A stretch of DNA of 64,000 nucleotides from Acidobacteriota bacterium. GTDB lineage: Bacteria; Acidobacteriota; Thermoanaerobaculia; Gp7-AA8. A program made the translations under genes and the position numbers. Shown in pieces: positions 5,333 to 40,638 of the stretch (the first letter of the stretch is position 1; each line of letters begins with the position of its first letter). Location of the stretch: contig JAFATB010000006.1 of assembly GCA_019244185.1 (NCBI GenBank), positions 310,001 through 374,000 of the forward strand. Reading direction: 5' to 3'. Under the pieces are notes generated by a model. That model did no database searches. It worked only from the letters and a program-made list of their open reading frames with translations, and was not told where the DNA came from.

Positions 5333-7728
<2,396 letters not shown>

Positions 7729-7778
7729 GTTCGTGTCTCTTATACAGCGGTGAGGGGGCAAATGCTTCCCGATACAGG

Positions 7779-7804
7779 AAGGGCCGCGTGAAGCCGCGGC
7801 CCTT
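7779..7804 (-). terminator. GC hairpin between clpX and lon, possible attenuator
   Basis: A 10-bp perfect stem AAGGGCCGCG / CGCGGCCCTT with a 6-nt loop lies 26 nt past the clpX stop. No T-tract follows on the minus strand, so it is a weak terminator at best. It may set the clpX/lon expression ratio or protect the mRNA end. Confidence 0.4.
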
Positions 7805-7830
7805 CGCTCGGATGAACAACTTCGTATTCC

Positions 7831-9081
<1,251 letters not shown>

Positions 9082-9186
9082 TTCCGATTGGGTCCTTTTT
9101 GTGAGCTCGTCGAAGAGATTGAACTCCTCGGCGTCGCCCAAGTCAACTCGGCCCCGGCGAGGCGCATTCCACGCGAGGAAGAGCCC

Positions 9187-11226
9187 TCAGCGCGGCAGCA
9201 CCGAACGCCGCCGTGGCGGCGACGGAATGTCGATGCTCCACAAGCCCCGGCTCCAGACCGAGGCCCACAGCGTCGACGTGCCCGGAGCGAATTGCAGTTG
9301 CGGAATGCGCGCGCTTCCGGCGATCCCGTCCGCCTGCACCCACGTCGCGCCACCGTCCGCCGTACCGTACAGTCCGGAGCTCCCTCCGACGAACCAATAG
9401 TCCGCGCGCCGCGGATGCCGCGCGAAGTCGAGCAGCCCGCCGCCACCGATGCCGTTTCGCCATGCGACCGGCGCGGTGGCGGTCGCATCCTTCCACGTCG
9501 CGCCGCCGTCGCGCGAGACCTGCAGCGACTTCGTGAGCAGCACGTACAGCGTCTTCGGATCGTCCGCATCGACGACGACTTTCACGAGCGGACCGAGACT
9601 GCGGTCGAACTGCGCGACGCGCGTCCACTCCGGCGCGTCCGCGAGCGCGTTGCGCGTGCGATACAGCTCGCGCGTGCTGTCGCCGGTGTAGACGACGTTC
9701 GAGTCGCCGGGCTGCACCGCGATCGCTGCCATCGCGATCTCGCCGCTGTACGTGCGGACCGTCGTGATCTTCCGCGGCAGCGCGCTCTGGATGCCGTCGA
9801 GCCGCAGGAGCTGCGAGCTGCCGATGAACATGCGCGACGATTCATTCGGATCGATCGTCCAGGCGGCGTAGAACGGATCCGTCCCGCTGCGCCGCGAATC
9901 CGCGAAGATCGTCTGCGGCGGCCACTTCGTGACGACCGCGCCCGGCGTCGCACCGAAGCCGAAGATCGAGACAAAGTACGCGCGGTCGTCGAGCGGATCG
10001 AACGCGATGCGGAACACGTCGCCGTCGCCGAGGTGCTCGGCGGTCGTCTCGCCGATCTCCAGCACGCCGAGACCGGTGTCCTGCATGCCGAACGCGACGC
10101 GTCCGCTGCGATGGATGTCGAACGCGTAGATCTGCGCATTGACGAGTCCCATCGTGAGGTGCTGCCAGGCGATGTGCGGCGCGGTGATGTCGTCGGTGCG
10201 GTAGATGCCGCCGTCGCCCCAGACGAAGACGCGGCGGTTCGTCGTGCCGTCGAACGCGGGATCGGCGGCCACGCCGTGCACGTCCGCATGCGGCTCCTGA
10301 TTGAGGCCGTCGGCACCGTACGCCGCCTCGCTCGTTCTTCCGCCGTCGAGGCTGCGCCCGAGCACGATTGCACCGGTGACGATCACGTCGCGCGGCGCGA
10401 CGAGCAGCGCGGCCACGCGCAGCGTGTAGCCGTACGTCGGCGTGGTGCCGAGGAGCGTGAAGCTCGCGCCGTCGTCATCGGAGCGCAGCAGTTTCTCATC
10501 GAGCGTGCCGGTGCGCGTCGCATACGCCACGATCGACGTGCTGCCCGGAACGTATTCGAGCGCGAGACCGTCGATTTCCGCGTCGAGCCCGCCGGTGGAG
10601 GTCCACGTCTCGCCGCCGTCTTTCGTCACGAGACCGCCGACGTGACCGCTGCTGGTGCCGACGGCCGCGACCGCGCGCAGCGGATCGCTCGGATGAAACC
10701 GTACTTTCGTGAAATAGGTCGTGTTGTCGACGATGTAGTGCTGCCACGTCGCGCCGCCGTCGCGCGAGAGCTCGATGCCGCTGAGGCGCGCGACGAGCAC
10801 GCGCGATCCGTCGGCGGAAACCGCGACGGAGAACACCTGCCACCCCGCCGTCGCGGGCAGCAGCGTCCAGGTCGCGCCGCGGTCGTCGCTGCGAAAGAGT
10901 CCGCGCGGCGACACGTAGCCGCCCGCGTACAACACGTCGTGGTGCACCGGATCGCGCTCGAGGCAGCTGACGTTCAGCCCGTCGAACGCCGCGAGCGACC
11001 ACGTCGCGCCGGCGTCGCCGCTCGCCCAGATTCCGCCGGCGGTTGCGGCGAGATATCGGTTCGCGTCGTCGGGATCGAAGACGAACGCGTTGACGACGCC
11101 GCTCAGGTCCGACGGCCCGCGCGACACCCACGCGTGTCCCGAAAACGGCGACGACGCTGCATCGAGATGCAGCGTCGTCAGCGTGAGCACCGCCGTTACG
11201 ACCACAACGTGCAGCGCGCGCGTCAT
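9187..11226 (-). CDS. Secreted Asp-box (BNR) beta-propeller protein inserted between clpP and clpX
   Basis: The 679 aa product begins with a signal peptide (MTRALHVVVVTAVLTLTTLH, likely cut after LDA). It then has at least seven Asp-box motifs of the form SxDxGxTW: SGDAGATW, SDDRGATW, SRDGGATW, TKDGGETW, SDDDGASF, a second SRDGGATW and TADGGATW. Such proteins fold as sortilin- or sialidase-like propellers, but no sialidase catalytic set is evident, so no reaction is assigned. It starts 10 nt after the clpP stop and ends 105 nt before clpX, in the same direction, so it is very likely co-transcribed with the Clp genes. Base composition resembles its neighbours, so recent transfer is not evident. 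A role in the periplasm or outside the cell is inferred from the signal peptide. Confidence 0.85.
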   Translation of the reverse strand: MTRALHVVVVTAVLTLTTLHLDAASSPFSGHAWVSRGPSDLSGVVNAFVFDPDDANRYLAATAGGIWASGDAGATWSLAAFDGLNVSCLERDPVHHDVLYAGGYVSPRGLFRSDDRGATWTLLPATAGWQVFSVAVSADGSRVLVARLSGIELSRDGGATWQHYIVDNTTYFTKVRFHPSDPLRAVAAVGTSSGHVGGLVTKDGGETWTSTGGLDAEIDGLALEYVPGSTSIVAYATRTGTLDEKLLRSDDDGASFTLLGTTPTYGYTLRVAALLVAPRDVIVTGAIVLGRSLDGGRTSEAAYGADGLNQEPHADVHGVAADPAFDGTTNRRVFVWGDGGIYRTDDITAPHIAWQHLTMGLVNAQIYAFDIHRSGRVAFGMQDTGLGVLEIGETTAEHLGDGDVFRIAFDPLDDRAYFVSIFGFGATPGAVVTKWPPQTIFADSRRSGTDPFYAAWTIDPNESSRMFIGSSQLLRLDGIQSALPRKITTVRTYSGEIAMAAIAVQPGDSNVVYTGDSTRELYRTRNALADAPEWTRVAQFDRSLGPLVKVVVDADDPKTLYVLLTKSLQVSRDGGATWKDATATAPVAWRNGIGGGGLLDFARHPRRADYWFVGGSSGLYGTADGGATWVQADGIAGSARIPQLQFAPGTSTLWASVWSRGLWSIDIPSPPRRRSVLPR

Positions 11227-11236
11227 GGGAGTGGCG

Positions 11237-11824
11237 TCAGTCGCGCTTCGCGATCACCTGATCGACGAGGCCGTACTCCTGCGCCTGCGGCGCCTGCAGG
11301 ATGTAGTCGCGGTCCGTGTCCTTGTCGATCTTCTCGATCGGCTGGCCGGTGTGGTTGGCGAGGATGGAGTTGAGGCGCGCCTTCATCTGCATGATGTCGC
11401 GCGCGTGGATGTCGATCTCGGTGGCTTGTCCGCCGAGGCCGTGCATGAGCGGCTGGTGGATGAGGACGCGCGAGTTCGGGAGGCAGTAGCGCTTCCCCTT
11501 CGTGCCGCACGCGAGCAGCACCGCGGCCATCGACGCCGCCTGACCGATGCAGATCGTGGCGATGTCGGGCTTCACGTATTGCATGGTGTCGTAAATCGCG
11601 AGGCCGGCCGTGATGGAGCCGCCCGGCGAGTTGATGTAGATCGAGATGTCCTTCTCCGGGTTCTCGGCCTCGAGGAAGAGCAGCTGCGCGATGATGAGGT
11701 TGGAGACGTTGTCGTCGATCGGCTGGCCGAGGAAAATGACGTTGTCTTTGAGGAGGCGCGAGTAGATGTCGTACGCGCGTTCGCCGCGCGACGTCTGCTC
11801 GACCACCATCGGGATGAGGACCAT
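11237..11824 (-). CDS. clpP: ATP-dependent Clp protease proteolytic subunit ClpP
   Basis: Serine protease subunit that forms the tetradecameric chamber used with ClpX. The catalytic triad is visible: Ser in [12 protein letters not shown], His in [10 protein letters not shown], and Asp in DKDTDRDY. The product is 195 aa. The ORF track extends 43 codons upstream into the inverted repeat. The ATG at 11824 is preferred because AAAGGAG lies 10 nt before it and because [20 protein letters not shown] matches the family start. The upstream codons of the long ORF only translate repeat arms. The gene follows tig, with one heptamer repeat copy in the gap. Confidence 0.97.
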
Positions 11825-11878
11825 GGGGATGAATCTCCTTTGCGAGAGGGATTCTATGCGAAGGGGGAGAGGGGACCG

Positions 11879-11984
11879 AAAAGCTGAATGAAGAACGCAG
11901 AACGCAGAATGAAGAATTGAGAATGAGAGACCGCGCGGGCGGGGGCTTCTCAATTCTTCGTTCTGCGTTCTTCATTCAGCTTTT
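11879..11984. repeat. Heptamer inverted repeat, copy 1 (tig-clpP gap)
   Basis: The left arm (11879-11923) begins AAAAGCTGAATGAAGAACGC and consists of 7-nt units TGAAGAA, CGCAGAA, CGCAGAA, TGAAGAA, TTGAGAA. The right arm (11947-11984) is its reverse complement with one unit fewer. The 23-nt loop is GC-rich and contains GACCGCGCGG. The outer end touches the tig stop codon. The arms are far richer in A than the surrounding DNA. Confidence 0.9.
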
Positions 11985-13255
11985 CAGCGCGTCCGCGCCT
12001 CCTTCAACACCACCTCCAGCGCCCGGTCCTGCGCCATGCTCGCGCGCAGCGCCTCGTAGCCGCCGTCGTGCTTGAGGTGGTGCTTGACGTCGGCGAACTC
12101 GCGGTCCTGCTCGCGCGCCGCGCGGCGGATCTCCGCGTCGACTTCGACGTCGCTGACGGTGATGTTCTCCTTGCGCGCGATGGCCTCGAGAATCAGGCCG
12201 CGCTTGACGCGCTTGACGGCTTCCGGCCGGAACTCTTCGCCGATCTTCCGCCAGTCCATTTCTACGTTCTGTAGATCGACGCCCTGCGACGCGAGATAGC
12301 GCGCGTAGTTGTTGAGCGACTTCCCGAGCTCTTCTTCGACCAGCGCCTCCGGCACGTCGAACGGATGCGCGGACACGAGCTTCTCGCCGAGTTGATTGCG
12401 CTTGAACCGCAGCGCCTCGGCTTCGCGGTGGCGGCGGATGTCGGCTTCGATCGTCGAGCGCATCTGCTCGACGCTCTCCCAGCCGCCGACGCTGTTCGCG
12501 AACGCGGCGTCGACGTCCGGCTTCTCCTGCACGCGGATCTCTTTGAGCGTCACGTCGTGATGCACGGTCTTGCCGCGCCACGCTTCCTGATTCGCGTCTT
12601 CGCCGTATGCCTTGTCGAACGAGGCGGTGTCGCCGGCCTTCTTGCCGCGCAGCGCGTCGTGCAGCTCGGGGAGCGGCGTCTCCTCGCCCATCTTGAAGTG
12701 ACCCTGATCGGTCTTCGGCTCGATGTCTTCGCCCGACGAGGCGATCTCGATCACCGCGAAGTCGCCCTCATCGAGGCCGCGCTCGGACTCGATGCGATAG
12801 CTGCTGGCCTGATCGCGCAGGCGCTCGATCATCGACTCGACGTCGTTCTCCAGGACCTCGATCTTCGGCTCGTCGATCTCGAGGCCGCGGTACTCGCCGA
12901 GCTCGATCTGCGGCTTGACTTCGAACTTCGCCTTGAACTTCATCGGCGCGCCGTCGATGAAGGGATCGAGGTGCTCGAGCTGCGGCTCGCCGACCGGCTC
13001 GAGGCCTTTGTCGCGCACGACGTCACGGAAGCTCTGGCCGAGGACGCGCTGGACGACCTCTTCCTGAATCTCTTTCGCGAACCGCGTCCGCACCACGCTC
13101 GCCGGCACTTTGCCGGGCCGGAAGCCGGGCACCTTCGCCTGGCGGCCGAACTCGGACGTCACCTTGTTCGCCTCACGCGAGAGCAGATCGGCCGGAATTT
13201 CGACCTCGACGGACTTCTGGACGGGAGAGAGATCTTCGAAATTGAGGACTGTCAT
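11984..13255 (-). CDS. tig: Trigger factor, ribosome-associated chaperone and prolyl isomerase
   Basis: The 423 aa protein binds the ribosomal exit tunnel and shields nascent chains. The N-terminal ribosome-binding domain carries the GFRPGKVP signature. A FKBP-like PPIase domain follows (about 150-245, GDFAVIEIASSGED), then the helical C-terminal substrate arms. Length is normal. It is the first gene of the tig-clpP-clpX-lon module. Both ends are bounded by copies of the heptamer inverted repeat: copy 2 ends 18 nt upstream of the start and copy 1 begins at the stop codon. Confidence 0.96.
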   Translation of the reverse strand: MTVLNFEDLSPVQKSVEVEIPADLLSREANKVTSEFGRQAKVPGFRPGKVPASVVRTRFAKEIQEEVVQRVLGQSFRDVVRDKGLEPVGEPQLEHLDPFIDGAPMKFKAKFEVKPQIELGEYRGLEIDEPKIEVLENDVESMIERLRDQASSYRIESERGLDEGDFAVIEIASSGEDIEPKTDQGHFKMGEETPLPELHDALRGKKAGDTASFDKAYGEDANQEAWRGKTVHHDVTLKEIRVQEKPDVDAAFANSVGGWESVEQMRSTIEADIRRHREAEALRFKRNQLGEKLVSAHPFDVPEALVEEELGKSLNNYARYLASQGVDLQNVEMDWRKIGEEFRPEAVKRVKRGLILEAIARKENITVSDVEVDAEIRRAAREQDREFADVKHHLKHDGGYEALRASMAQDRALEVVLKEARTR

Positions 13256-21149: not shown

Positions 21150-21827
21150 TCACCAGAAGAAACGCGAGCGCGTCACCGTCCAGGCGATGCGCAGCGTGTC
21201 TTTGAGCGGCCGGTAGTGGCTCGTGGAGATGCCGTCGACGAAGCCGAGCTCGATCGGAATCGTGACGATCTTCAGGCCGCTGCGGCCCGCGCGGACGATC
21301 ACTTCGCTTTCCATGTCGAAGCCGTCGGTGCGCAGCGTGAGGCGGCGGAGCAGACTTGCGGAGTAGAGGCGGAAGCCGCTCTGCGAGTCGGAGATCGGCG
21401 TGCCGGACGTCTTCGCGATGCACCACGCGGAGAAGCGGTTCGCGGCGCGGCGGCGCGGGAGCATGTGCGCGAAGAGGTGCGCGCGTCCGCCGATGATGAG
21501 ATCGGCGCCGGTCTCGGCGCGCGCGGCGAGGAACTTCGGAATCTCGCCCGGCAGATGCTGCCCGTCCGCGTCGAGCGTGATCGCGGCGTCGAAGCTGTTC
21601 GCGAGCGCCCACGCAAACCCGGTCTTGAGCGCGCCGCCTTTGCCTCGATTCACCTCGTGACGCAGAACCTGCGCGCCGGCCGCGCGCGCGACGTCGCCGG
21701 TTCTGTCGCGCGAGCCGTCGTCGATGACGACCACCGGTTCGAGGCGGCGGCGCGCGTCGGCGACGATCGGCGGCAGCGTGCGTTCGGCGTTGAGCGCCGG
21801 AATGAGCACGCAGACGCGCTCGGTCAC
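21150..21827 (-). CDS. Family 2 glycosyltransferase (dolichyl-phosphate-mannose-synthase-like)
   Basis: This 225 aa GT-A enzyme has VLIPALNAERTLPPI, VVVIDDGSRDRT, the DxD-type AITLDADGQH, and QSGFRLYS, all typical of DPM1/DPG-synthase-like GT2 enzymes. It would transfer a sugar from a nucleotide-sugar to a lipid or other acceptor at the membrane. The start is GTG at 21827, overlapping the stop of the degenerate ketosynthase (GTGA). It is therefore the last gene of the ACP-to-KS operon and may glycosylate its product or a carrier lipid. The link to the cluster is inferred from position. Confidence 0.88.
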   Translation of the reverse strand: MTERVCVLIPALNAERTLPPIVADARRRLEPVVVIDDGSRDRTGDVARAAGAQVLRHEVNRGKGGALKTGFAWALANSFDAAITLDADGQHLPGEIPKFLAARAETGADLIIGGRAHLFAHMLPRRRAANRFSAWCIAKTSGTPISDSQSGFRLYSASLLRRLTLRTDGFDMESEVIVRAGRSGLKIVTIPIELGFVDGISTSHYRPLKDTLRIAWTVTRSRFFW

Positions 21828-23014
21828 GCCGCCTCCCGCGAGACCACGGCGCAGACGATGCCGCCGCCGGCGCTGATCGCGTTGACGAGCACGTGGCGCA
21901 GCTCCGCCCCGCGCACACTGCGATTCACGGCGAGGTCGCTCTCATCCGATCCGACGGACGCGTGCAGCCGTTGCTCGTCGATGGCGACGATCGCGCTCGC
22001 GAGTTGCAGCGCGCCACCCGCGGCGTATTCGCCGAAGATCCCTTTCGTCGCGACGACCGCCGGCATGCGCGCGCCGAACAGCAGTTCGATTGCGCGCGCC
22101 TCGACGTCATCGCCGCGGCGCGAGCCGTTCGCCGACGCGTAGACCGCGTCGATGTCGTCGGGCGTCAGCTCCGCGTCGTCGATCGCGGCGCGCATCGCGG
22201 CGGCGACGCTCGACGGATCGGAGCCCCAATCGGAGATCGACGCCGTGGTGTCGCGAGCGACGCCGAAGCCGGAGAGCCACGCGTACGGCTTGCGCGTGCC
22301 GCCGTTGCCCGCGACGAGCACGCAGCCGCCTTCGCCGAGAACGAGACCGTTGCGGCGGCGGTCGAAGGGACGCGCGGCTTCGTCCAGCACCGCGCCGTTC
22401 GCGTGCGCGAGGGCGCCGAGTCGATCGAGCACGCTGAAGAGCATCTCGTTCGCCTCCTCGACGCCGCCGATGAGCGCCGCGTCGACGGTGCCCTTCAGCA
22501 GTTGCGACGACGCGTACATCGCGGCAGCGAGGACGGACGACTCGCGCTGCGTCGTCGTCAGATTGAAGCCGCGCAGGTTCCATTCGATCGCGATGTGGCT
22601 GCCGGGCGCGTTCGCCACCGACTCGGCGAAGAGTTGCGGCGGCGCGAGCGCGGCGCCTTTCTCGACGTAATCCTGCATGTACTCGACAGACGTCTGCACC
22701 GGACCGAACGCGGTGCCGATGGCGACGCCGGTGTTCTGGCCGGGCGCCGCGCCGGCGTCGTCGATGGCGAGCTTCGCGGCCGCGAGGCCGAGGCGCGAGA
22801 GCGCGTTCATGCGCCGCATTTTCATCGGTGCGATGAAGTCGCGCGGACTGAAGCCATTCACGAGCGCCGCCTTGTGCGCGGAAAGGCCGGTGGTGTCGAA
22901 GCGTTCGACGTCGGCGACGGCGCTCCGCCCTTCGGCGAGCAGCCGGCGGAATGCGTCGAGGCCGATCGCGCCGGGCGCGATGACGCCGATTCCGGTGACG
23001 GGGATGCGCACCAT
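21824..23014 (-). CDS. Degenerate beta-ketoacyl synthase, chain-length-factor-like partner
   Basis: The 396 aa protein has the thiolase-fold KS pattern from VTGIGVIAPGAIGLDAF to the C-terminus. The catalytic positions are changed. The nucleophile region reads LTTTQRESSVLA instead of TACASS (Cys aligned with Arg). The first His region reads YASANGSRRGDD instead of NAHGTGT, and the second reads KGIFGEYAAGGA instead of KSYFGHTLGASGA. It should be unable to condense by itself and probably pairs with the intact KS next to it, as CLF/KS-beta proteins do in type II PKS and aryl polyene systems. It starts 14 nt after the KS gene. Confidence 0.87.
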   Translation of the reverse strand: MVRIPVTGIGVIAPGAIGLDAFRRLLAEGRSAVADVERFDTTGLSAHKAALVNGFSPRDFIAPMKMRRMNALSRLGLAAAKLAIDDAGAAPGQNTGVAIGTAFGPVQTSVEYMQDYVEKGAALAPPQLFAESVANAPGSHIAIEWNLRGFNLTTTQRESSVLAAAMYASSQLLKGTVDAALIGGVEEANEMLFSVLDRLGALAHANGAVLDEAARPFDRRRNGLVLGEGGCVLVAGNGGTRKPYAWLSGFGVARDTTASISDWGSDPSSVAAAMRAAIDDAELTPDDIDAVYASANGSRRGDDVEARAIELLFGARMPAVVATKGIFGEYAAGGALQLASAIVAIDEQRLHASVGSDESDLAVNRSVRGAELRHVLVNAISAGGGIVCAVVSREAA

Positions 23015-23027
23015 GCGAAGGCGCCGG

Positions 23028-24257
23028 TTATAGCACGCGGCGGAACAGCAGCGACACGTTGCTGCCGCCGAAGCCGAACGTGTTCGAGAGCACGTTCGCC
23101 ATCGCCAGCGGCCGCGGCGCGTGCGGGATGTAATCGAGCGGACAATCGTCCGCGCGCGCCTGCAGACGCAGCGTCGGCGGCGCGATCTGGTTGCGCAGCG
23201 CGAGCACGCTCACGACCGCTTCCACCGCGCCCGACGCGCCGAGCGTGTGGCCGAAATACGACTTGCTCGACGACACCGGCACGTCCATGCCGAGCGCCGC
23301 GATGATCGCCTTCGTTTCCGCGGAGTCATTGAGCAGCGTGCCGGTGCCGTGCGCGTTGACGTAGTCGACGTCGGCGGTGTCGAGCCGACCTTCCGCGAGC
23401 GCCGCGCGCATCGCCGCCTCCGCGCCGCGACCGTCTTCCGCCGGCGCGGTCTGATGATGCGCGTCGCACGACGCGCCGTAGCCGGAGAGCTCGGCGAGAA
23501 TCGTCGCGCCGCGCGCGACCGCGTCGTCCCAACGTTCGAGCACGAGATAGCCCGCGCCTTCGCCGAGGGTGATGCCTTTGCGATCCGCGCCGAACGGCGA
23601 ACAGGGCGCGGGATCGACCGCCTGCAGCACGTTGAAGCCGCTGTACGTGAGGCGACAGAGCGCGTCGCTTCCGCCCGCGACCGCGACGTCCGCGTGACGA
23701 GAGCGCAGGTAGTCGGCAGCCATGCCGATCGCCGCACCCGCCGACGCGCATGCCGTTGCGTTCGAAACGACGCCACCGCCGAGACTGAAGGCGCGCGCGA
23801 CCGCATCGGACGGACCCGACGTCGGCTGCTGCAACACGTGCGACGCGGCCGCGCGCCTACGACCACGCGATCTACGATGGAAATAGTAGTTCTCGCCTTC
23901 GAGCAGACCGCCGGTCGATGTACCGGTCGAGACGATGGCGCGCTCGCGCGGCAGCGGCGTCGTCGCATTCGCGTCGGCGTCGTCGAGCGCTTCCTTCGCC
24001 GCGATCACGGCGAGGAGATCGGTGCGCGAGAGCCGCCGCAACGCGCGTTTCCCATCCGGCAGCAATGACGCGAGATCGCTCTCGACTTCTGCCGCGAGCT
24101 CGGTCGGAAACGTTTCGCCGGGAAAGCGCGTGAGCCGGTCGATGCCCGCGCGCGCGTCGACGATCGCCTGCCAAACCTCGGCTTTGTTGCGGCCGATGGA
24201 GCAGATGATGCCGGCGCCGGTGACGGCGATGCGCTGCTGCGGGTCAGGTGGTCTCAC
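23028..24257 (-). CDS. Beta-ketoacyl-ACP synthase (FabF/type II PKS KS-like), catalytically intact
   Basis: The 409 aa protein has the full Cys-His-His set: Cys in SNATACASAGA, His in YVNAHGTGTLLND, His in SSKSYFGHTLGASGA, and ends with NTFGFGGSNVS. It condenses an ACP-bound extender with a growing acyl chain. An Arg-rich stretch HRRSRGRRRAAASH around residue 127 is unusual for FabF. The start is taken as GTG 24257, which overlaps the dehydratase gene by 14 nt. Its partners are likely the downstream degenerate KS and the upstream ACP. Primary FabF seems less likely, because no fabD, fabG or fabH is near. Confidence 0.92.
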   Translation of the reverse strand: MRPPDPQQRIAVTGAGIICSIGRNKAEVWQAIVDARAGIDRLTRFPGETFPTELAAEVESDLASLLPDGKRALRRLSRTDLLAVIAAKEALDDADANATTPLPRERAIVSTGTSTGGLLEGENYYFHRRSRGRRRAAASHVLQQPTSGPSDAVARAFSLGGGVVSNATACASAGAAIGMAADYLRSRHADVAVAGGSDALCRLTYSGFNVLQAVDPAPCSPFGADRKGITLGEGAGYLVLERWDDAVARGATILAELSGYGASCDAHHQTAPAEDGRGAEAAMRAALAEGRLDTADVDYVNAHGTGTLLNDSAETKAIIAALGMDVPVSSSKSYFGHTLGASGAVEAVVSVLALRNQIAPPTLRLQARADDCPLDYIPHAPRPLAMANVLSNTFGFGGSNVSLLFRRVL

Positions 24258-24612
24258 GCGACGCGAGATAAAACCGGCCGCGTACGGCTTCTACTCCACC
24301 GATCCGTCCGCTTCCGCTGAATCGGAACGTCCCGCCGAACTCCGCCTCGAGCGTCACCGTGATCTCGACCGCGTCGCCCGGCTCCGGCACGCGCAGCACC
24401 TCGCAGCGGTCGATGCCGGTGAGGAAGCCCTGCTCGCGCAGGACGAGGCCGCCGGCGAACTGCGCCATCGCCTCGACGACCATCACGCCCGGCGGCAGGA
24501 CGTCGTTCGTCGTGCAGATGTACACGCCTTCGGTGGTCTTCTCGTCGCTGCGCCGCACCGCGCTGGCGGCGCGGAACGGAATCTGGTGAGGGAGATTGGC
24601 GAGCCAGGACAA
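24244..24612 (-). CDS. FabZ/FabA-like hotdog dehydratase with altered active site
   Basis: The 122 aa product has the start of a FabZ-type hotdog fold (LPHQIPFRAAS) and the central helix with the catalytic acid (GVMVVEAMAQFAGGL). The GHFPGRP loop that carries the catalytic His in FabZ is missing: DVLPPG joins directly to the helix. Either it uses another His, or it binds acyl-ACP without dehydrating it. The start is TTG at 24612, 6 nt after the ACP stop; there is no better in-frame start. It sits between ACP and KS in one operon. Confidence 0.8.
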   Translation of the reverse strand: MSWLANLPHQIPFRAASAVRRSDEKTTEGVYICTTNDVLPPGVMVVEAMAQFAGGLVLREQGFLTGIDRCEVLRVPEPGDAVEITVTLEAEFGGTFRFSGSGRIGGVEAVRGRFYLASRETT

Positions 24613-24618
24613 GGGCGA

Positions 24619-24888
24619 CTACGCCTGCGGCTGCTCCTGCGCGAGCTTCGCGCCGACGAAATCGGCGAGCGTGGCCACCGAGCGGAACGAGTCGCGCGCG
24701 GAGGTCTCGTTTTTCACCTTGATGCCGAACTCGCTCTCGAGCATCACCACGATTTCGAGCGCGTCGATGGAGTCGAGGCCGAGGCCGCCGGCGAAGAGCG
24801 GCTCGTCATCGGCGATGTCGTCGGGGGTCATGTCTTCGAACTTCAGCCGCTCGATGAGCAGCTCTTTGAGTTTGCGTTTGAGATCCAT
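24619..24888 (-). CDS. Acyl carrier protein
   Basis: An 89 aa acidic helical protein with the phosphopantetheine attachment motif GLDSIDALE (Ser about residue 39). It is the first gene of the operon ACP-dehydratase-KS-KS-like-GT2, and divergent from the AMP-ligase with a 68-nt gap. It is probably a dedicated carrier for the cluster, not the housekeeping AcpP, because no fab genes adjoin it. A phosphopantetheinyl transferase is needed but is not in this window. Confidence 0.93.
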   Translation of the reverse strand: MDLKRKLKELLIERLKFEDMTPDDIADDEPLFAGGLGLDSIDALEIVVMLESEFGIKVKNETSARDSFRSVATLADFVGAKLAQEQPQA

Positions 24889-24956
24889 GTCAGGTGCAGT
24901 CTATCGCGGGAATCAACGGCTCGGAGAGCGCATGTTATTCTGCGCAACGGTCCTCT

Positions 24957-26312
24957 ATGTACCTAAGATTTCAATCCCTTGTCGACGCCGATCCGCACGC
25001 GGCGGCGCTGATCGACGGCGAGCGCGGCACGCTCGTCACGCGCGCGGAACTGCTCGACCGCGCCGCCGAGCTCGCCGCGCGCCTCTCCGCCTCCGGCCTT
25101 CGCGAACGCGACGCGCTCGCGGTGAAGCTCCCGAATTCCATCGACCTCGTCGCGGTGATTCTCGCCGCGTTGCGCCTCCGCCTCGTCCTCATCCCGATCG
25201 ACCGCGACGCGAACGAATCCGAAGTCGCCTCGATCCTCGGCCACTTCGCCGTCAAAGGTCTCGCCTATCGCTCTGATCCCGAGACCACGTCGTTCTCGAC
25301 GCGCAGCGTTGCGGAGCGCCCGCTCGTTCCCGACGACGCCGTGCTCGTCAAGCTGACGTCGGGCTCGACCGGCAAGCCGAAGGGCATCGTCACGACGGAA
25401 GCGAACCTCCTCGCCGACTGCACGAACATCTGCGCGACGATGGACATCCGAGCCATGGACGTTAATCTCGGCGCGATCCCGCTGTCGCATTCGTACGGCT
25501 TCTCGAACCTCGTCACGCCGCTCTTCGTGCAGGGCACCGCGCTCGTCATCACGAATGACTACCTGCCGCAGTCGCTGATCGAGCTCGCGAACCGCCACGG
25601 CTGCACGGTCGCGCCGCTCATCCCGATGGTCTTCGAGCATCTCGCGAGCGCCGCGCACGGCGAGTTCACGAGCATCCGGACGTTTCTCTCCGCCGGCGCT
25701 CCGCTGCCGCCGTCGACGTCGCGCCGTTTCCGCGAGCGCTTCGGCGCGGCGATTCATTCGTTCTATGGCTGCAGCGAATGCGGCGGCATCACGTACGACC
25801 GCGCGGGCGGCGCCGTCGAGCGCGGCACCGTCGGCACGCCGCTCGACGGCGTCACGCTCGCGCTCGAGCGCGGACGTCTCACCGTGCGCAGCGCGTCCGT
25901 CGCCGCGGGGTATCTCTTCGATGCGGCGACGTTCACGCCGTTCCCGAACGGCGCGTTCACGACGGACGATCTCGTCGAGCTGCGCGCGGACGGCGAGGTC
26001 GCGCTGACCGGACGCGCGAGCGATCTGATCAACACCGCCGGCAAGAAGGTGAACCCGCGCGAAGTCGAGGCGGTGATCCTGCAGCTCGACGGCGTGCGCG
26101 AGGCGAAGGTCTACGGCGAGGCGGCCGGAGCGCGCGGCGAAGTCGTGGCCGCGGCGGTCGTGGCGACGCCGAACGTGACGCGCGAGCTCGTACGCGAGTT
26201 CTGCCGCGCGCGGCTCTCCGCGCACAAGGTCCCGCGCATCGTGAAGCTCATCGAGGAGCTGCCGGTGGATGAGCGGGGGAAGGTTCGGCGCGCGGCTCTG
26301 GCGACGCTATAG
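24957..26312 (+). CDS. AMP-dependent acyl/aryl ligase (ANL superfamily)
   Basis: The 451 aa protein activates a carboxylic acid as an adenylate, then passes it to CoA or an ACP. ANL motifs: KLTSGSTGKPKGI (P-loop), SFYGCSECGG, FTTDDL, and the C-terminal hinge GRASDLINTAGKKVNP with a downstream Lys-containing GKVRRAA. It is shorter than long-chain acyl-CoA synthetases and close in size to aryl or medium-chain ligases. The start is ATG 24957; the track start adds 21 codons of non-conserved leader. It is divergent from the ACP gene and probably loads a starter unit. Its 3' end overlaps the convergent flavoprotein gene by 65 nt. Confidence 0.9.
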   Translation: MYLRFQSLVDADPHAAALIDGERGTLVTRAELLDRAAELAARLSASGLRERDALAVKLPNSIDLVAVILAALRLRLVLIPIDRDANESEVASILGHFAVKGLAYRSDPETTSFSTRSVAERPLVPDDAVLVKLTSGSTGKPKGIVTTEANLLADCTNICATMDIRAMDVNLGAIPLSHSYGFSNLVTPLFVQGTALVITNDYLPQSLIELANRHGCTVAPLIPMVFEHLASAAHGEFTSIRTFLSAGAPLPPSTSRRFRERFGAAIHSFYGCSECGGITYDRAGGAVERGTVGTPLDGVTLALERGRLTVRSASVAAGYLFDAATFTPFPNGAFTTDDLVELRADGEVALTGRASDLINTAGKKVNPREVEAVILQLDGVREAKVYGEAAGARGEVVAAAVVATPNVTRELVREFCRARLSAHKVPRIVKLIEELPVDERGKVRRAALATL

Positions 26313-27813
26313 CGCGGCGCCGCATCCGCCGCACCTTCCACTGCAACCGCAGCGCATCGAGCTCGGCGCGCATCCAGAACATCCAGCCGCGAACGGCCAT
26401 GCGGATCGGCGCGAAGCCGAGGTTGTAGTACGCGGTGATGCGGCGTCCGTCGTTGCGCGCGCCTTCTTCGCCGGCGGCGCGGCGCAGTTCTGCGATCGCT
26501 TTGAAGCGCCGGTTGTAGAGCTGCATGAAGTGATAGCTGATGAACGCCGGCTTCGGCCCGAGCACCGGCATCCAGTCGAAGCGGCGCAGGATGCGATACG
26601 CGTGGATCACCACGAAGATGTAGTACTGCGCGGTATCGATGAGGAACGACGCCGAGAGCAGATCGGCCTCGCCCATGTAGTAGTACTTGTCCTTGTAGGC
26701 GGCGCGGAAGAAGCGTTCGTACGAGCGTGCGAACGTCGCGTTGTGCTCGGCGATGCGCGCGGTGACGTCCTCGCCCATCTGCTGCTGCTTGATGATGCCG
26801 ACCGTGGCGTCGACGGTGAACGCCGCGTGATCGAGTCCCGGCGAGTAGTACGGATCGAGGAATGCCGCGGCATCGCCGAGGAGCGACCAGCCGCGTCCCA
26901 TGTACTGCTTCGAGACGTACGGCAGGTGCGAGTAGAAGCGCAGATCTTCGAGCCGCGGCTCGGCGCCGTCGAGGATCTCGGAGAGCGACGGAATGGCTTT
27001 CAGAAACGCGACGAAGTCTTCCGCGCGGTTCTTGCTGTGATGGAGATCGACGAGGCGTTTGTCGAAGACGACGCCGATGCTCGTCTCGCTGTTGCCGAGC
27101 GGAATGACCCAGATCCAGAAGCCGTAGCCGGTGTAGTGATTCGTCGCGAGGCGGCGCGAGCCGACGTTGTTCGGTGCGATGCCGAGGCGCACGGCGAGAT
27201 CGTCGATGTGCCGGACGTTCTTCCAGCGGCACCAGATGGCGGCAGTGGGATGCTCGTCGTTGCGCGTGACGAGATCGAGCTTGCGTCCGATGAAGTTCGC
27301 GCGGCCGGTCGCGTCGAGGATCCACTTGCACGTGATCGTGCGCATCGCGCCGCCGGCGCCGAGCGTCAGCGTGTGCGAGAACTCGCCGAGCGCGACGTCG
27401 AGCGCGCGCGCGGGACGCCACAGATCCGCGCCTTCCGCGACGGCGGTGGCGAGCAGATGCTCGTCGAGCGCATCGCGGCGCAGCTGAAAGGCGGGGACCG
27501 TGCTGCGGATGTAGCCGCCGGCTTCGGTCGCATTCGCGTGGCCGGTGACTTTCGCGTTCGAGAACCAGTAGCGCAGCCCTTCCTTCGGCAGCTGTTCGCG
27601 TTCAAGGTGGTGCCACATCGCGAGGCGGCGCGTGAGGAACATCGCCGACATCTCCGTCGTGGCCTCGCCGACCTTCTCGTCGAACGCTTCCGCTTTCTCG
27701 ACGATGAGCACGCGCAATGCGGGGAGCTCGCGGCGCAGCAGAATGGCGGCGGCAGCGCCGCTGAAGGCGCCGCCGAGCACGACGACGTCGTACGAGCCGG
27801 GCGAGTCGGGCAT
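26248..27813 (-). CDS. Halogenase-like FAD-dependent oxidoreductase
   Basis: The 521 aa flavoprotein has an FAD-binding start VVVLGGAFSGAAAAILL and GEATTEMSAMFL. The motif WIWVIP fits WxWxIP of flavin-dependent halogenases, and LLGDAAAFLDPYYSPGLDHA resembles the halogenase/tryptophan-halogenase family. It could halogenate, hydroxylate or dehydrogenate an acyl or aryl substrate; the reaction is not settled. The C-terminal 100 residues are basic and end in a Pro/Ala-rich tail read antisense to the ligase gene. The start is ATG 27813 (MPDSPGSYDVVVLGG) in place of the longer 27834. It lies next to the ligase, so membership of the KS cluster is likely. Confidence 0.8.
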   Translation of the reverse strand: MPDSPGSYDVVVLGGAFSGAAAAILLRRELPALRVLIVEKAEAFDEKVGEATTEMSAMFLTRRLAMWHHLEREQLPKEGLRYWFSNAKVTGHANATEAGGYIRSTVPAFQLRRDALDEHLLATAVAEGADLWRPARALDVALGEFSHTLTLGAGGAMRTITCKWILDATGRANFIGRKLDLVTRNDEHPTAAIWCRWKNVRHIDDLAVRLGIAPNNVGSRRLATNHYTGYGFWIWVIPLGNSETSIGVVFDKRLVDLHHSKNRAEDFVAFLKAIPSLSEILDGAEPRLEDLRFYSHLPYVSKQYMGRGWSLLGDAAAFLDPYYSPGLDHAAFTVDATVGIIKQQQMGEDVTARIAEHNATFARSYERFFRAAYKDKYYYMGEADLLSASFLIDTAQYYIFVVIHAYRILRRFDWMPVLGPKPAFISYHFMQLYNRRFKAIAELRRAAGEEGARNDGRRITAYYNLGFAPIRMAVRGWMFWMRAELDALRLQWKVRRMRRRAIASPEPRAEPSPAHPPAAPR

Positions 27814-27832: not shown

Positions 27833-28456
27833 ATGGAGTCGATTCGGCATCTGCTGCATTACCTCAGCGACGTGCGCGGCCTCGTGCAGACGGGCGGCTA
27901 CATCGCGCTGGCCATTATCGTCTTCATCGAGACGGGACTCATGGTCGGATTTTTTCTGCCGGGCGATTCGCTGCTCGTGACCGCGGGCCTCTTCGCCGCG
28001 AAAGGCGACCTCAACATCGTTCTTCTCAATCTGCTGCTGATGGTCTGCGCGATCGCCGGCGATGCGACCGGCTACTTCATCGGCCGCCGCCTCGGGCCCG
28101 CGCTCTTCCGCCGCGAGGACTCGCTGCTCTTCAAGAAAAAGCACCTCATCGCCGCGCATGACTTTTACGAGCGCCACGGCGGCAAGACCATCATCATCGC
28201 GCGCTTCGTGCCGGTGATCCGCACGTTCGCGCCGGTCGTGGCCGGCATCGGCAACATGGGCTACCGCCGCTTCGCCGCGTTCAACGTCATCGGCGGCACG
28301 GCGTGGGTGTTCTCGATGACGATGATCGGCTACCTGCTCGTGACGATCTTCCCGGCGACGGAGAAGCACATCGAGACGGTGATCATCGTCGTGATCGCGC
28401 TGTCGCTGCTGCCGGGCGTGATCGAGTGGCTGCGCGCGCGGCGTTCCGCGGCGTAA
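27833..28456 (+). CDS. DedA-family membrane protein
   Basis: The 207 aa polytopic protein has the DedA/SNARE-associated signature: FFLPGDSLLVTAGLFA and ARFVPVIRTFAPVVAGIGNM. DedA proteins are undecaprenyl-phosphate or phospholipid flippases that support envelope integrity. The start is ATG 27833; another ATG in frame lies at 27812. Either way the start is within about 20 nt of the divergent flavoprotein start, so promoters must overlap coding DNA. No link to the KS cluster is proven. Confidence 0.9.
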   Translation: MESIRHLLHYLSDVRGLVQTGGYIALAIIVFIETGLMVGFFLPGDSLLVTAGLFAAKGDLNIVLLNLLLMVCAIAGDATGYFIGRRLGPALFRREDSLLFKKKHLIAAHDFYERHGGKTIIIARFVPVIRTFAPVVAGIGNMGYRRFAAFNVIGGTAWVFSMTMIGYLLVTIFPATEKHIETVIIVVIALSLLPGVIEWLRARRSAA

Positions 28457-37905: not shown

Positions 37906-38190
37906 CTAGGTGCGCGTGGTGCCGGCGGGCGCTGCCGCGCCTGCACCGACACCGCCGCCGCCTTCGCCGGGGCCGAGGGCCGGACGGGCCACGGTCGACG
38001 TGATGCCGACGGCTTCCGCGTACTTGAGGTACGTATCGATCGATGCGATGACGACGCGGGCCTCAACGGTGATCAGGTCGATACCGACGAGAGAGATGCG
38101 AACCCACGCGTCGACGACGATACCTTTGTCGAGAATGCGGTCCAGTACGTCGATGAGACTGGTTCCGCCTGGGGCGCGTTCAACAGCCAT
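37906..38190 (-). CDS. gvpA: Gas vesicle major structural protein GvpA
   Basis: This 94 aa protein forms the ribbed shell of gas vesicles. The conserved core is nearly canonical: [40 protein letters not shown] and [14 protein letters not shown] tail of about 25 residues rich in Gly, Ala and Thr follows. There is only one gvpA in the window, and it is the last gene of the minus-strand gvp operon, 3 nt after gvpJ. A ribosome site AGGCAGG precedes the ATG. Last place is unusual for a protein needed in large excess, so an internal promoter or another gvpA copy is possible. Confidence 0.96.
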
Positions 38191-38193
38191 GAC

Positions 38194-38571
38194 TTACCTG
38201 CCTTTCCTCTCTCCAGGCTTCCCGGCGGGAAGCTCGCGTGCATTGAGTTGACGTTCGAGATCCGCGATGCGGTTGCGCAGCTCGTCGTACTCCTCGGCGC
38301 CGCGCAACGCGCGCGGGTCGCTCGAGTAGAAACGGTCCGAGCGCCACCAGTTGATGCCGATCGCCTCCGCCTTGTCGATCGAACAGATCACGAGGCGCAG
38401 CTGGATCGTCAGCAGCTCGACGTTCGCCAGCGAGACCTTCACGTCTCCGGCGACCACGAGCCCCTTGTCCAGGATTTTGTCGAGGATGTCGACCAACCCC
38501 TGCGGCTGCCGCTGGAGCGATCCTCCCCGATCATCGATAGGCAATCGCGACTCCCATCTTCGAGTGCTCAC
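38194..38571 (-). CDS. gvpJ: Gas vesicle protein GvpJ (GvpA/J/M family)
   Basis: The 125 aa protein has a GvpA-like core with J-type features: LVDILDKILDKGLVVAGDVK, SLANVELLTIQLRLVICSID and KAEAIGINWW. A charged helical C-terminus rich in Arg and Glu follows. Family members are minor components that help nucleate the shell or form its tips. The start is GTG 38571. It comes 31 nt after gvpK and immediately before gvpA. Confidence 0.92.
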   Translation of the reverse strand: MSTRRWESRLPIDDRGGSLQRQPQGLVDILDKILDKGLVVAGDVKVSLANVELLTIQLRLVICSIDKAEAIGINWWRSDRFYSSDPRALRGAEEYDELRNRIADLERQLNARELPAGKPGERKGR

Positions 38572-38602
38572 CTTTTAACGGTGCCGCATCCGCGAGTCAA
38601 CA

Positions 38603-38929
38603 TCATTCCCACATCTTTACCGGGCCCAGCTTGAGATTCAGATCTTCGTCGGACAGGCCGAACGTGCGCTTGAGCTCCGCCATCTTTTCCTCGAGCTTCA
38701 TGAGCGCCGCGCCGACGCGCTCGATCTCGTCGTCGGTGAGGTTGCCCGCGTCCATGCGGCGCAGCGCCTGCTTCTCGAGCAGCTTCCGCACGAGCTCGAC
38801 GATCGACAGCACGAGCTTCGCGAGCCCGTTCTCGACGATCTCCGAGTCGGCGGCGATGCGCTCCGGCACGACCGACTCCGCGAACGTGAGCGCGCGCCGC
38901 AGCTGCTCTTCTTCATTGGTCAGCATCAT
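38603..38929 (-). CDS. gvpK: Gas vesicle protein GvpK
   Basis: The 108 aa helical protein contains ENGLAKLVLSIVELVRKLLE and ALRRMDAGNLTDDEIERVG, then FGLSDEDLNLKLGPV, all typical of GvpK, an assembly factor found in most gvp clusters. The start is the first of two ATGs (38929), with GGAGG 9 nt before it; the track ORF adds 35 codons. It overlaps the upstream GvpF/L gene by 17 nt. Confidence 0.94.
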   Translation of the reverse strand: MMLTNEEEQLRRALTFAESVVPERIAADSEIVENGLAKLVLSIVELVRKLLEKQALRRMDAGNLTDDEIERVGAALMKLEEKMAELKRTFGLSDEDLNLKLGPVKMWE

Positions 38930-39557
38930 CGGCGAAGACCTCCAGCGGCCACGGACCCGACAGCAGAAACGGCACCTGCGCGCACGTGCGGCGCAACTCC
39001 TCGCCGGCGGCGCGCACGTCCTCGACGCGCGCACGCGGCACGAGCGCCGCGAGCTCGATCGACTTCTCGTCGCGATGACTCCAGCGATGTTTTTTGGCGA
39101 ACGGAAGGATGCGCGCCTCTGCTTCTTTCACGAACGCCGGATCGGCGGCGGACGCGTTCGTGGCCTCGTGCAGCGCGCGCAGATACTCCGCGCCGCTCGT
39201 GAAGTCCCGACGATCGGGACGCGGACGCGCGGCAGCGGCGGCGGCTTTCAGCGTCATCTCGACGTCGTCGCGATGCGCGTCGAGGAGACGCGTCCAGCGC
39301 GGCAGATGCGCGGCGCACTTCGACTCCCCTTCCGCGGAGTCGCGCACGGCGAGGCCGTAGCGGATGGCCACGAACGTCGCGCGGTCGAGCAGCCGCGCGC
39401 GCAGCTTCGCGACTGCGACGAGCAGCTCGCGGTCCGAGACCGGCTGCTCGTCCGCGATCGGCAACGCGCTCAGAAAGAGCTCACCGCACGCGAGCGCCTC
39501 GGCAGGCGCGTCGATGTCGTCGCGCCGGCGATGCGCGCCGATGACGACGAATCTCAT
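38913..39557 (-). CDS. GvpF/GvpL-family gas vesicle protein (third copy)
   Basis: The 214 aa protein is a divergent member of the GvpF/GvpL family. The C-terminal signature FLLSGPWPLEVFAD and the ferredoxin-like N-terminal strands (MRFVVIGAH, ELFLSALPIADEQPVSD) support this. GvpF/L proteins bind GvpA and are thought to start assembly. It is the third such protein in this operon. Its start overlaps the stop of the small gvpS-like gene (ATGA) and its end overlaps gvpK. Confidence 0.85.
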   Translation of the reverse strand: MRFVVIGAHRRRDDIDAPAEALACGELFLSALPIADEQPVSDRELLVAVAKLRARLLDRATFVAIRYGLAVRDSAEGESKCAAHLPRWTRLLDAHRDDVEMTLKAAAAAARPRPDRRDFTSGAEYLRALHEATNASAADPAFVKEAEARILPFAKKHRWSHRDEKSIELAALVPRARVEDVRAAGEELRRTCAQVPFLLSGPWPLEVFADDADQ

Positions 39558-39730
39558 CGCTTCGATGTCCGGATGACCGCGTCGACGTTTGCGAGGATGA
39601 CGTTCAGGCCGAGGTAGAGAAGGTCCACGTCGCCGATCGACACGATCGCTTCGCCGGCGATGACCACGCCGCGATCGAGCAGATGATCGAGCATCTCCAG
39701 CAGCGCGAGTTCTTCGACGTTCTCAGACAT
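39554..39730 (-). CDS. gvpS: Short GvpS-like member of the GvpA/J/M/S family (absent from the ORF track)
   Basis: A 58 aa ORF below the track cutoff. The translation contains LALLEMLDHLLDRGVVIAGE and SIGDVDLLYLGLNVILANVD, the GvpA-family core without any tail. By position (after gvpL, before gvpK) and sequence it matches GvpS of Bacillus-type clusters, but it is shorter. It starts 3 nt after the gvpL stop and ends in an ATGA overlap with the next gene. Confidence 0.88.
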   Translation of the reverse strand: MSENVEELALLEMLDHLLDRGVVIAGEAIVSIGDVDLLYLGLNVILANVDAVIRTSKR

Positions 39731-39733
39731 GGT

Positions 39734-40504
39734 TCAGTCGTGGGCAAACGAGTACGGCGGCCACGGCCCGCTCACGCCAACCACCACGCCTTCACCGGCG
39801 TAGCGATCCATGAGCGTCGCGTGCAACTCCTGCAAAGCCGCTTCCTCGTCGCGCTCGAGAAGGATGTTGATCTGTGGAAACGCGCCGTCGCGCCGCTCGC
39901 GCGTCTCCGCGAACGTCTCGCAGCGGAGGCTGCCGGCGACGGCCTGCTCGATCTCCGCGACGACGTTCTGCTCGGCCTCGCGCGACGCGCGCTTCTTCTC
40001 GTCGTCGAGCTTCTTGCGCAGCAGGAACGCGCGTCCCGGCGGCGCGGCGGCGATCTGCGCCTGCAGCTCGCGCAGCGACTCCGCACGCGCGACCAGCGCC
40101 TCGCTCCAGCGCGCCGGCTCGAACTCGACGCGCAGCGTCCACTCCTGCTTGTCGCCGAGGCGCTCGAGCTGCGCGCCTAACAAATGCGCGTGCTCGTGCA
40201 GATACGCGCGCAACGCGTCGGCGCCGGAGAAGAGCGTGAACGCGCGAAGCGGCACGATCGCGGTCAGCTTCATCAATTCGGCGACGACGGCCTGATGCCG
40301 GTAGCCGATCGCGCCGAGCCATTCGAGATCGTTCGCGCGGCGGTCGATCACCTCCTGCGACAGCTCCGCGGACGGCATGGCCGTGAAGACCGCGGCGATG
40401 CCGTCGCTCTCCGCGACGCCGAAGCGACGCGTGCCGTCGATGCCGTCCGTGTCCGGCGTGGCCGGCTCGCGCGTCACGGCGTAGACGTAGAGAACGGTGT
40501 CCAA
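39734..40504 (-). CDS. gvpL: Gas vesicle protein GvpL (GvpF/GvpL family)
   Basis: The 256 aa protein begins TVLYVYAVTREP and ends VVVGVSGPWPPYSFAHD. These are the two conserved ends of the GvpF/L family, with a helical middle. It probably binds GvpA during nucleation. The start is TTG 40504, the only start that keeps the conserved LYVYAV strand near the N-terminus. Repeat copy 4 fills the space between it and the ArsA-like gene, which is the only large gap in the operon. Confidence 0.92.
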   Translation of the reverse strand: MDTVLYVYAVTREPATPDTDGIDGTRRFGVAESDGIAAVFTAMPSAELSQEVIDRRANDLEWLGAIGYRHQAVVAELMKLTAIVPLRAFTLFSGADALRAYLHEHAHLLGAQLERLGDKQEWTLRVEFEPARWSEALVARAESLRELQAQIAAAPPGRAFLLRKKLDDEKKRASREAEQNVVAEIEQAVAGSLRCETFAETRERRDGAFPQINILLERDEEAALQELHATLMDRYAGEGVVVGVSGPWPPYSFAHD

Positions 40505-40521
40505 GAGCGAAACTATAAAAC

Positions 40522-40638
40522 GAATGAAGAACGCAGAACGCAGAATGAAGAACGTAGAAGCGGCACGGCGCGCCGGTCAACGCGCCCGCATCGCGGCGGT
40601 TTCTACATTCTGCGTTCTGCGTTCTGCGTTCTTCATTC
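40522..40638. repeat. Heptamer inverted repeat, copy 4 (inside the gas vesicle operon)
   Basis: The left arm (40522-40559) is GAATGAAGAACGCAGAACGC...GTAGAA. The right arm (40600-40638) is its complement with one extra CGCAGAA-type unit. The 40-nt loop has GCGCGCCGGTC as in copy 2. The outer right end supplies the last bases and stop codon of the ArsA-like gene (GAATGA). Confidence 0.9.

Follow-up and report, generated by a model that had tools for sequence, protein, structure and literature searches.

Which product is made by a compact set of ACP, dehydratase, ketosynthase (KS) and glycosyltransferase genes in an uncultured member of the Acidobacteriota, class Thermoanaerobaculia, and does the locus represent a pathway or a part of one? 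The set lies within a 64,000-nucleotide stretch of DNA, which as a whole is called the window here. A reading made from the letters of this DNA (the sequence-only reading) had left the set unassigned and had suggested that the product may be short. One-by-one homology to the ape proteins lets the unit be placed in the aryl polyene (xanthomonadin/APE/arcuflavin) group, and the locus is probably the chain-elongation core of a dispersed, 3-hydroxybenzoate-primed, xanthomonadin/APE-like aryl-polyene pathway, which would yield a yellow pigment.

The five genes form a single minus-strand operon (24888-21150), transcribed in the order ACP, hotdog, KS1, KS2 and GT2. The spacing is tight, with overlaps of 14 bp (hotdog/KS1) and 4 bp (KS2/GT2) and remaining gaps of 6-13 bp. 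An AMP-forming acyl ligase (24957..26312) is encoded on the opposite, plus strand, with 68 bp between its start and the ACP start, and a flavin-dependent halogenase-like protein (26248..27813, minus strand) overlaps the 3' end of the ligase gene by 65 bp. The operon, the divergent ligase and the adjoining flavoprotein were all found where the sequence-only reading had placed them.

Comparison with the aryl polyene system of E. coli CFT073 (apeA-R) revealed counterparts for most of these proteins. The ACP (24619..24888, minus strand; Pfam PF00550) carries the phosphopantetheine site GLGLDSIDALE and, as expected for a dedicated ApeE-type ACP, shares 49% identity with E. coli ApeE over 82 aa (E 7e-23); its score against the NCBIfam model NF006617 is 67.1 bits, with a cut-off of 70. 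The hotdog protein (24244..24612, minus strand) gave no match over the cut-off in the Pfam search and is FabZ-like in the NCBIfam search. Its AlphaFold model (pLDDT 86) adopts a FabZ fold, with a Foldseek TM of 0.86 to 4h4g. Alignment with ApeP and the dehydratases of sister clusters shows that LPH and E-x-M-A-Q are retained and that the FabZ catalytic GHF segment is absent, consistent with a dehydratase subunit of the ApeP type. Its start codon is TTG, and the relatives begin with ATG at MSWL. GT2 (21150..21827, minus strand; PF00535) is a homologue of the N-terminal domain of ApeJ (34% identity over 229 aa, E 6e-28) and, unlike ApeJ, has no acyltransferase half; glycosylation of the product is possible. 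The ApeH/ArcT-like ligase contains PF00501 and PF13193 and shows weak similarity to ApeH (23% identity, E 7e-11). We propose that it loads an aromatic starter on the ACP. In contrast to the E. coli system, the locus has no counterparts of ApeR, ApeI, ApeK, ApeL, ApeM, ApeN, ApeQ, ApeB and ApeD.

The flavoprotein matches PF04820 (2e-13), with CmlS as its best PDB match (1e-17), and its alignment shows the WxWxIP and FxDPxxSxG motifs together with an invariant Lys. It is present in 50 of 148 class genomes, and halogenation of the product is possible. The AlphaFold model of this protein (pLDDT 52) was left out of use. A second halogenase-like flavoprotein of about 417 aa, FAD2, stands at the operon head in many relatives and is absent from the operon of the window. 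An apparent 44-residue remnant of FAD2 was seen in G009, and the distribution looks like repeated loss.

The two KS proteins differ in their active sites. KS1 (23028..24257, minus strand) keeps the complete Cys-His-Lys-His set and shares 36% identity with ApeO (E 2e-67), in agreement with an ApeO-type active KS. In KS2 (21824..23014, minus strand), a full-length protein of 396 aa, the active-site Cys is replaced by Glu within a T-Q-R-E motif and the two His columns hold Ser and Glu, with the Lys kept; the protein is degenerate in 13 of 13 aligned family orthologs. The relatives' KS2 proteins are 54-71% identical, and the nearest other KS is at about 30%. In the KS/CLF phylogeny, suggested as a check by the sequence-only reading, KS1 groups at 97/91 with ApeO and the highly reducing type II KS, apart from FabF; the ApeO branch is long and its exact position loose. 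KS2 belongs to one 100/100 clade of 15 inside a branch made up of chain-length factors (CLFs) only. The genome's own FabF, located beside AcpP at another locus, sits elsewhere in the tree, and both proteins fall outside primary fatty-acid synthesis. Searching with the KS2 profile (A1) gave no match to ApeC (E 1.1), the half-size CLF of the aryl polyene system. As KS2 is full length and ApeC is unmatched, the CLF is of a different sort from that of proteobacterial APE systems, and the system is a variant rather than a plain APE member. The sequence-only reading had expected a short product, whereas the KS/CLF pair together with the dehydratase suggests a conjugated polyene. In one genome only, G023 (L044), KS2 lies among biotin genes, and a pimelate route was considered there and set aside.

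Similar to the KS-CLF pairs of actinobacterial type II PKS, the KS1 and KS2 genes are adjacent and KS2 shares a branch with the actinobacterial CLFs. However, the Cys is replaced by Glu (TQRE) here and by Gln there, KS1 lies outside the T2PKS KS clade, and no cyclase/aromatase is found among the operon genes. On the KS tree, both primary FAS and a classical aromatic type II PKS were rejected. The best PDB match of KS2 is chain C of the KS pair 9s5h/9s5i, in which the Cys is likewise missing and Glu occupies the position of the second active-site His; chain B is among the best KS1 matches. The literature search found no paper for 9s5h.

The core unit is conserved beyond chance. It turned up in every one of the 17 family relatives sampled and in one relative at order level, and the order of the ligase, divergent from ACP-hotdog-KS1-KS2-GT2, is kept in these 18 as far as each contig reaches; contig ends truncate the unit in G006, G010 and G013, and G007 has no ligase on its stretch. 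Wherever a relative's contig extends to the ligase gene, the ligase stands divergent to the operon, and crp is near the unit in the 14 loci reaching that far. Counts in relatives are based on tblastn, because the codon-based caller missed some genes. The window's genome was covered by searches and by individual stretches, and the contig scan yielded four loci only. A decaying cluster fragment was ruled out for the core, since active-site residues and gene order are kept among its members.

The rest of the genome offers a candidate source of the aromatic starter. A Hyg5-type chorismatase is encoded at C22:3217-4089, unlinked to the core, and it has the catalytic Glu as well as the Cys and Gly of 3-hydroxybenzoate-forming Hyg5 (diagnostic residues from PMC7170507). 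In nine genomes a chorismatase lies near the orthologous KS locus. KS2 is carried by 54 and chorismatase by 39 of the 148 class genomes, and 35 carry both (Fisher p 7e-16, kinship ignored). In 6 of the 18 core-bearing family genomes, including the same-genus G001 (96% complete, 50 contigs), the searches found no chorismatase, which implies either another starter source or a different starter there. The sequence-only reading had seen no ammonia lyase; the sole aromatic lyase found in the genome (C7) has histidine-lyase-like motifs and lies beside hisS. For this reason, the starter probably comes from chorismatase rather than from an ammonia lyase.

Other parts missing from the locus were found in fuller clusters, both within the class (families f6, f8, f12, f13 and f15) and outside it (f21, f34, f59, f67 and f82). 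These acidobacterial clusters hold, in varied combinations, a ketoreductase (KR), an MMPL exporter, an LPLAT acyltransferase, a PDA deacetylase, a methyltransferase and ApeI/ApeP-type dehydratases, among them an ApeI-type partner. No KR, ApeI-type partner, LolA or dedicated exporter is present in or near the locus of the window. The ketoreductase, acyltransferase and exporter that the sequence-only reading had missed occur in sister clusters, and orthologs of the LpxL-like acyltransferase (LPLAT) and the polysaccharide deacetylase (PDA) occur in the same genome at C4:285.6-287.7 kb. The best KR candidate there is FabG-like and unlinked (C9:13116-13835), with 47% identity to a sister-cluster KR; it scores 265 bits against a FabG cut-off of 298 and may simply be the housekeeping FabG. 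The genome's MMPL (C6), beside a BioY-like gene, was rejected as a dedicated exporter, being generic and HpnN-like.

Based on these comparisons, we propose a pathway in which the remote chorismatase would convert chorismate to 3-hydroxybenzoate, which the ligase would activate and load on the ApeE-like ACP. KS1, paired in a heterodimer with KS2 as its full-length CLF-like subunit, would carry out repeated condensation with malonyl-ACP. A KR from elsewhere, with the C9 protein as candidate, would act on each 3-keto group. Each double bond would be completed by the ApeP-type dehydratase, working with a FabZ- or ApeI-like protein encoded elsewhere, and the result would be an aryl polyene acyl-ACP. 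For the flavoprotein, a role in halogenating or hydroxylating the aryl end is possible. GT2, together with the remote acyltransferase and deacetylase, would join the polyene to a cell-envelope (glyco)lipid.

The arcuflavin cluster comprises a halogenase, chorismatase, AT, GT, KR, DH, KS, N-terminal-only KS, PS-deacetylase, exporter, AMP ligase and ACP (PMC3949708). Like xanthomonadin and arcuflavin (Xanthomonas xan, Azoarcus arc), the system proposed here combines a KS and a KS-like CLF with an ACP, AMP ligase, dehydratase, GT, halogenase and hydroxybenzoate-supplying chorismatase, and the sister clusters add KR, AT, PS-deacetylase and exporter. It differs in its full-length TQRE CLF, theirs being N-terminal-only, and in being spread over several loci in the window's family. 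This item-by-item match bears on a rival reading, in which the acyl chain is non-aromatic and either polyunsaturated or modified (ladderane-, ishigamide- or PUFA-like), is primed with a fatty acid by the ligase and is put on a membrane glycolipid by GT2 and the acyltransferase. Such a chain would suit the ligase, closest to long-chain fatty-acid ligase models, as well as the nearness of KS1 to highly reducing actinobacterial KS, the resemblance of GT2 to polyprenyl-phosphate glycosyltransferases and the unlinked, not always detected chorismatase of the window's family. Against the parts match, the nine linked chorismatases and the wide co-occurrence, we consider it unlikely.

A second branch of fatty-acid synthase, in which an alternative KS/ACP set would serve ordinary lipid synthesis instead of specialised metabolism, would explain the fixed, core-function-like chromosomal place in every family member and the best NCBIfam scores of KS1, which are to general FabF models. 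It appears improbable given the separation of KS1 and KS2 from the genome's FabF, the loss of all three catalytic residues in KS2, and the company of an ApeE-type ACP, an ApeJ-type GT2 and a halogenase-like flavoprotein. Very improbable is a flexirubin-like pathway with a 4-coumarate starter from tyrosine ammonia-lyase, possibly yielding a dialkylresorcinol ester. Several KS, dehydratases, a PS-deacetylase, acyltransferase, GT, exporter and AMP ligase also occur in the flx clusters of Chitinophaga and Flavobacterium, and FlxA itself has a HAL-like motif 1 (PMC3992019), so that lyase motifs alone are no proof. Nevertheless, the Hyg5-type chorismatase is present instead, tyrosine ammonia-lyase was not found, the only aromatic lyase adjoins hisS, and KR is seen only as the unlinked FabG-like candidate. 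The sequence-only reading's view of a type II FAS/PKS-like set with a likeness to aryl polyene loci is borne out by homology to ApeE, ApeO, ApeJ and ApeP.

Few bacterial natural products are as widespread as the aryl polyenes, and the experimental work on them found in our literature search concerns Proteobacteria and Bacteroidota. The parts list of the proposed aryl-polyene pathway is known from Xanthomonas-type pigments; the split-locus acidobacterial version with a full-length TQRE CLF is new, and this CLF type is offered for structural comparison with the half-size ApeC. A cluster-bound reading misleads here, as only a fragment is visible and the other candidate genes lie at other loci; through comparison, the unassigned fragment becomes a pathway that has a named starter and can be put to the test. 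More tentatively, the Acidobacteriota may hold a distinct aryl polyene lineage defined by the TQRE CLF and 3-hydroxybenzoate, and in the window's family this pathway would be vertically inherited and dispersed and would make a halogenated aryl polyene, anchored on an envelope glycolipid, that is a core membrane component and not an accessory metabolite. The locus provides a conserved envelope-pigment candidate for the uncultured Thermoanaerobaculia.

Every gene that the sequence-only reading had assigned to the cluster was confirmed at its position; the source assembly comprises 26 contigs and 5.3 Mb. The genes of the ACP, the ApeP-type hotdog dehydratase, the active ketosynthase KS1, the degenerate, chain-length factor (CLF)-like KS2 and the glycosyltransferase GT2 all lie on the minus strand (24888-21150), with neighbours overlapping or a few bp apart. 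The AMP ligase is divergent from this operon, with 68 bp between the starts, and convergent with the Trp-halogenase-like flavoprotein. A DedA gene (about 27833-28456, plus strand, start placed by homology) and an amidohydrolase gene flank the set. Each of the 18 genomes sampled from the family and order carries the arrangement ligase // (FAD2)-ACP-hotdog-KS1-KS2-GT2, its order kept wherever the contig permits. The crp gene is near the core in all 14 loci whose stretch extends that far, and the further neighbours common to relatives include the window genes W05, W06, W08, W09 and W10, read as lon, clpX, clpP, trigger factor and pgsA. Rather than a sporadic cluster, the core is a fixed locus that has been inherited vertically. 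In many relatives the operon begins with FAD2, a second halogenase-like flavoprotein, which the window's operon lacks; in the relative G009, what looks like a 44-residue C-terminal FAD2 remnant directly upstream of the ACP (C23:58967-59098) points to ongoing gene decay.

KS1 retains Cys-His-Lys-His. The Cys and both His of KS2 are gone in every aligned ortholog; the Cys column is embedded in a T-Q-R-E motif, and at the second His column stands Glu, or Asp in two distant members. In a tree of 51 KS proteins, KS1 falls into a single clade close to ApeO and to highly reducing KS from actinobacteria. KS2 forms a clade (100/100) within a CLF branch (97/99) that also holds two Streptomyces CLFs and PDB 9s5h_C. 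The tree does not place the two proteins in primary fatty-acid synthesis, the outcome that would have refuted the sequence-only reading: the genome's own FabF, which adjoins AcpP on contig C26, falls apart from both. Named sequences related to KS2 come from one uncultured Acidobacteria MAG and one Thermoanaerobaculia MAG. The hotdog protein has the FabZ fold without the GHF segment bearing the FabZ catalytic His and keeps E-x-M-A-Q, as do ApeP and the sister-cluster dehydratases. Compared with the E. coli CFT073 ape cluster, identities are 49% (ACP to ApeE), 36% (KS1 to ApeO), 34% (GT2 to the ApeJ N-domain) and 23% (ligase to ApeH). The window version departs from known aryl polyene systems in that its genes are dispersed, its locus lacks both a second KS (ApeR) and a second ACP, and its TQRE CLF is full-length where ApeC/ArcJ are half-size.

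The TQRE CLF occurs in 54 of the 148 Thermoanaerobaculia genomes, and in further classes of the phylum sample; the flavoprotein occurs in 50 of the 148. Fuller gene sets flank orthologous ACP-KS1-KS2 in families f6, f8, f12, f13 and f15 of the class and f21, f34, f59, f67 and f82 outside it. These sister clusters combine, variously, GT2, KR, MMPL, methyltransferase, LpxL-like acyltransferase, polysaccharide deacetylase and AMP ligase, with ApeI- and ApeP-type dehydratases that are fused in some. Arcuflavin/xanthomonadin and flexirubin clusters are built of the same parts (PMC3949708, PMC3992019). The kind itself is not new, since bulk reports of highly divergent arylpolyene clusters from acidobacteria already exist (PMC8692599); our literature search turned up no publication that deals with their chemistry or with the chorismatase link. 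Another aryl-polyene-like type, with KS2 only 36-38% identical to that of the window, was seen in families f58 and f69 (L104-L107), also in single-contig genomes. One relative (G023) carries a window-type AMP ligase-KS1-KS2 set (positions 6990-10794 of stretch L044, contig C1) adjoining putative biotin synthesis genes, perhaps by chance, perhaps through a pimelate link.

In L098 and eight more genomes, the KS locus contains an FkbO/Hyg5-type chorismatase gene or has one no more than about 12 kb away. The window's genome has its own, unlinked to the core (C22:3217-4089), whose closest PDB entry is 5ag3 (E 8e-36), which we take to be Hyg5. Its alignment shows the catalytic Glu, together with the Cys and Gly described in the literature as markers of enzymes forming 3-hydroxybenzoate (3-HBA) (PMC7170507). 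KS2 and chorismatase occur together in 35 of the 148 class genomes (carriers: 54 and 39), with a Fisher p of 7e-16 that overstates the association because kinship of the genomes is uncorrected; physical linkage supports the association independently. No chorismatase was found in 6 of the 18 core-carrying family genomes searched, including same-genus G001. The sole ammonia lyase found in the window's genome resembles histidine lyase. This divergent 571-residue aromatic amino acid lyase (positions 9209-10924 of stretch L093, contig C7) adjoins a hisS-like gene and stands in for the ordinary HutH-type enzyme across most of the family; its motifs suggest histidine as substrate.

Orthologs of the sister-cluster acyltransferase and deacetylase lie side by side at C4:285.6-287.7 kb, within a glycosyltransferase/ABC locus that three further family genomes inspected for it also keep. 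A FabG-like enzyme on C9, 47% identical to the sister-cluster KR, probably serves as the KR; it may be the housekeeping FabG. From shared gene content, we infer that these remote genes serve the pathway of the core; a remote chorismatase supplying a cluster has precedent in nat-hyg5 (PMC7170507). We propose, with good though not full confidence, an aryl polyene pathway. Chorismatase would likely convert chorismate to 3-HBA, which the AMP ligase would likely load onto the ACP; KS1/KS2 would elongate the chain, and KR and DH would process it to an aryl polyene. The flavoprotein retains WxWxIP, FxDPxxSxG and a Lys at the expected position, all typical of flavin-dependent halogenases. These motifs do not prove halogenation, and in tailoring the product it might about equally well halogenate as hydroxylate or act otherwise. 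GT2 and the LPLAT could plausibly attach the product to a lipid or glycolipid, on the model of the role proposed for ApeD/ApeJ (PMC8253772).

A second KS unit is conserved in the family (L047, G000:C3:21001-41000, genes 9676-12697; orthologs in L050 and L051): a solo KS, 77-80% identical between genera, in an operon with a methyltransferase-like protein and an FAD oxidoreductase. The window also holds a compact gas vesicle gene set on the minus strand (37906-43543), with two GvpA-type proteins, GvpK, three GvpF/L, GvpG and an ArsA-like ATPase by Pfam. Gas vesicles in an acidobacterial group would bear on its habitat.
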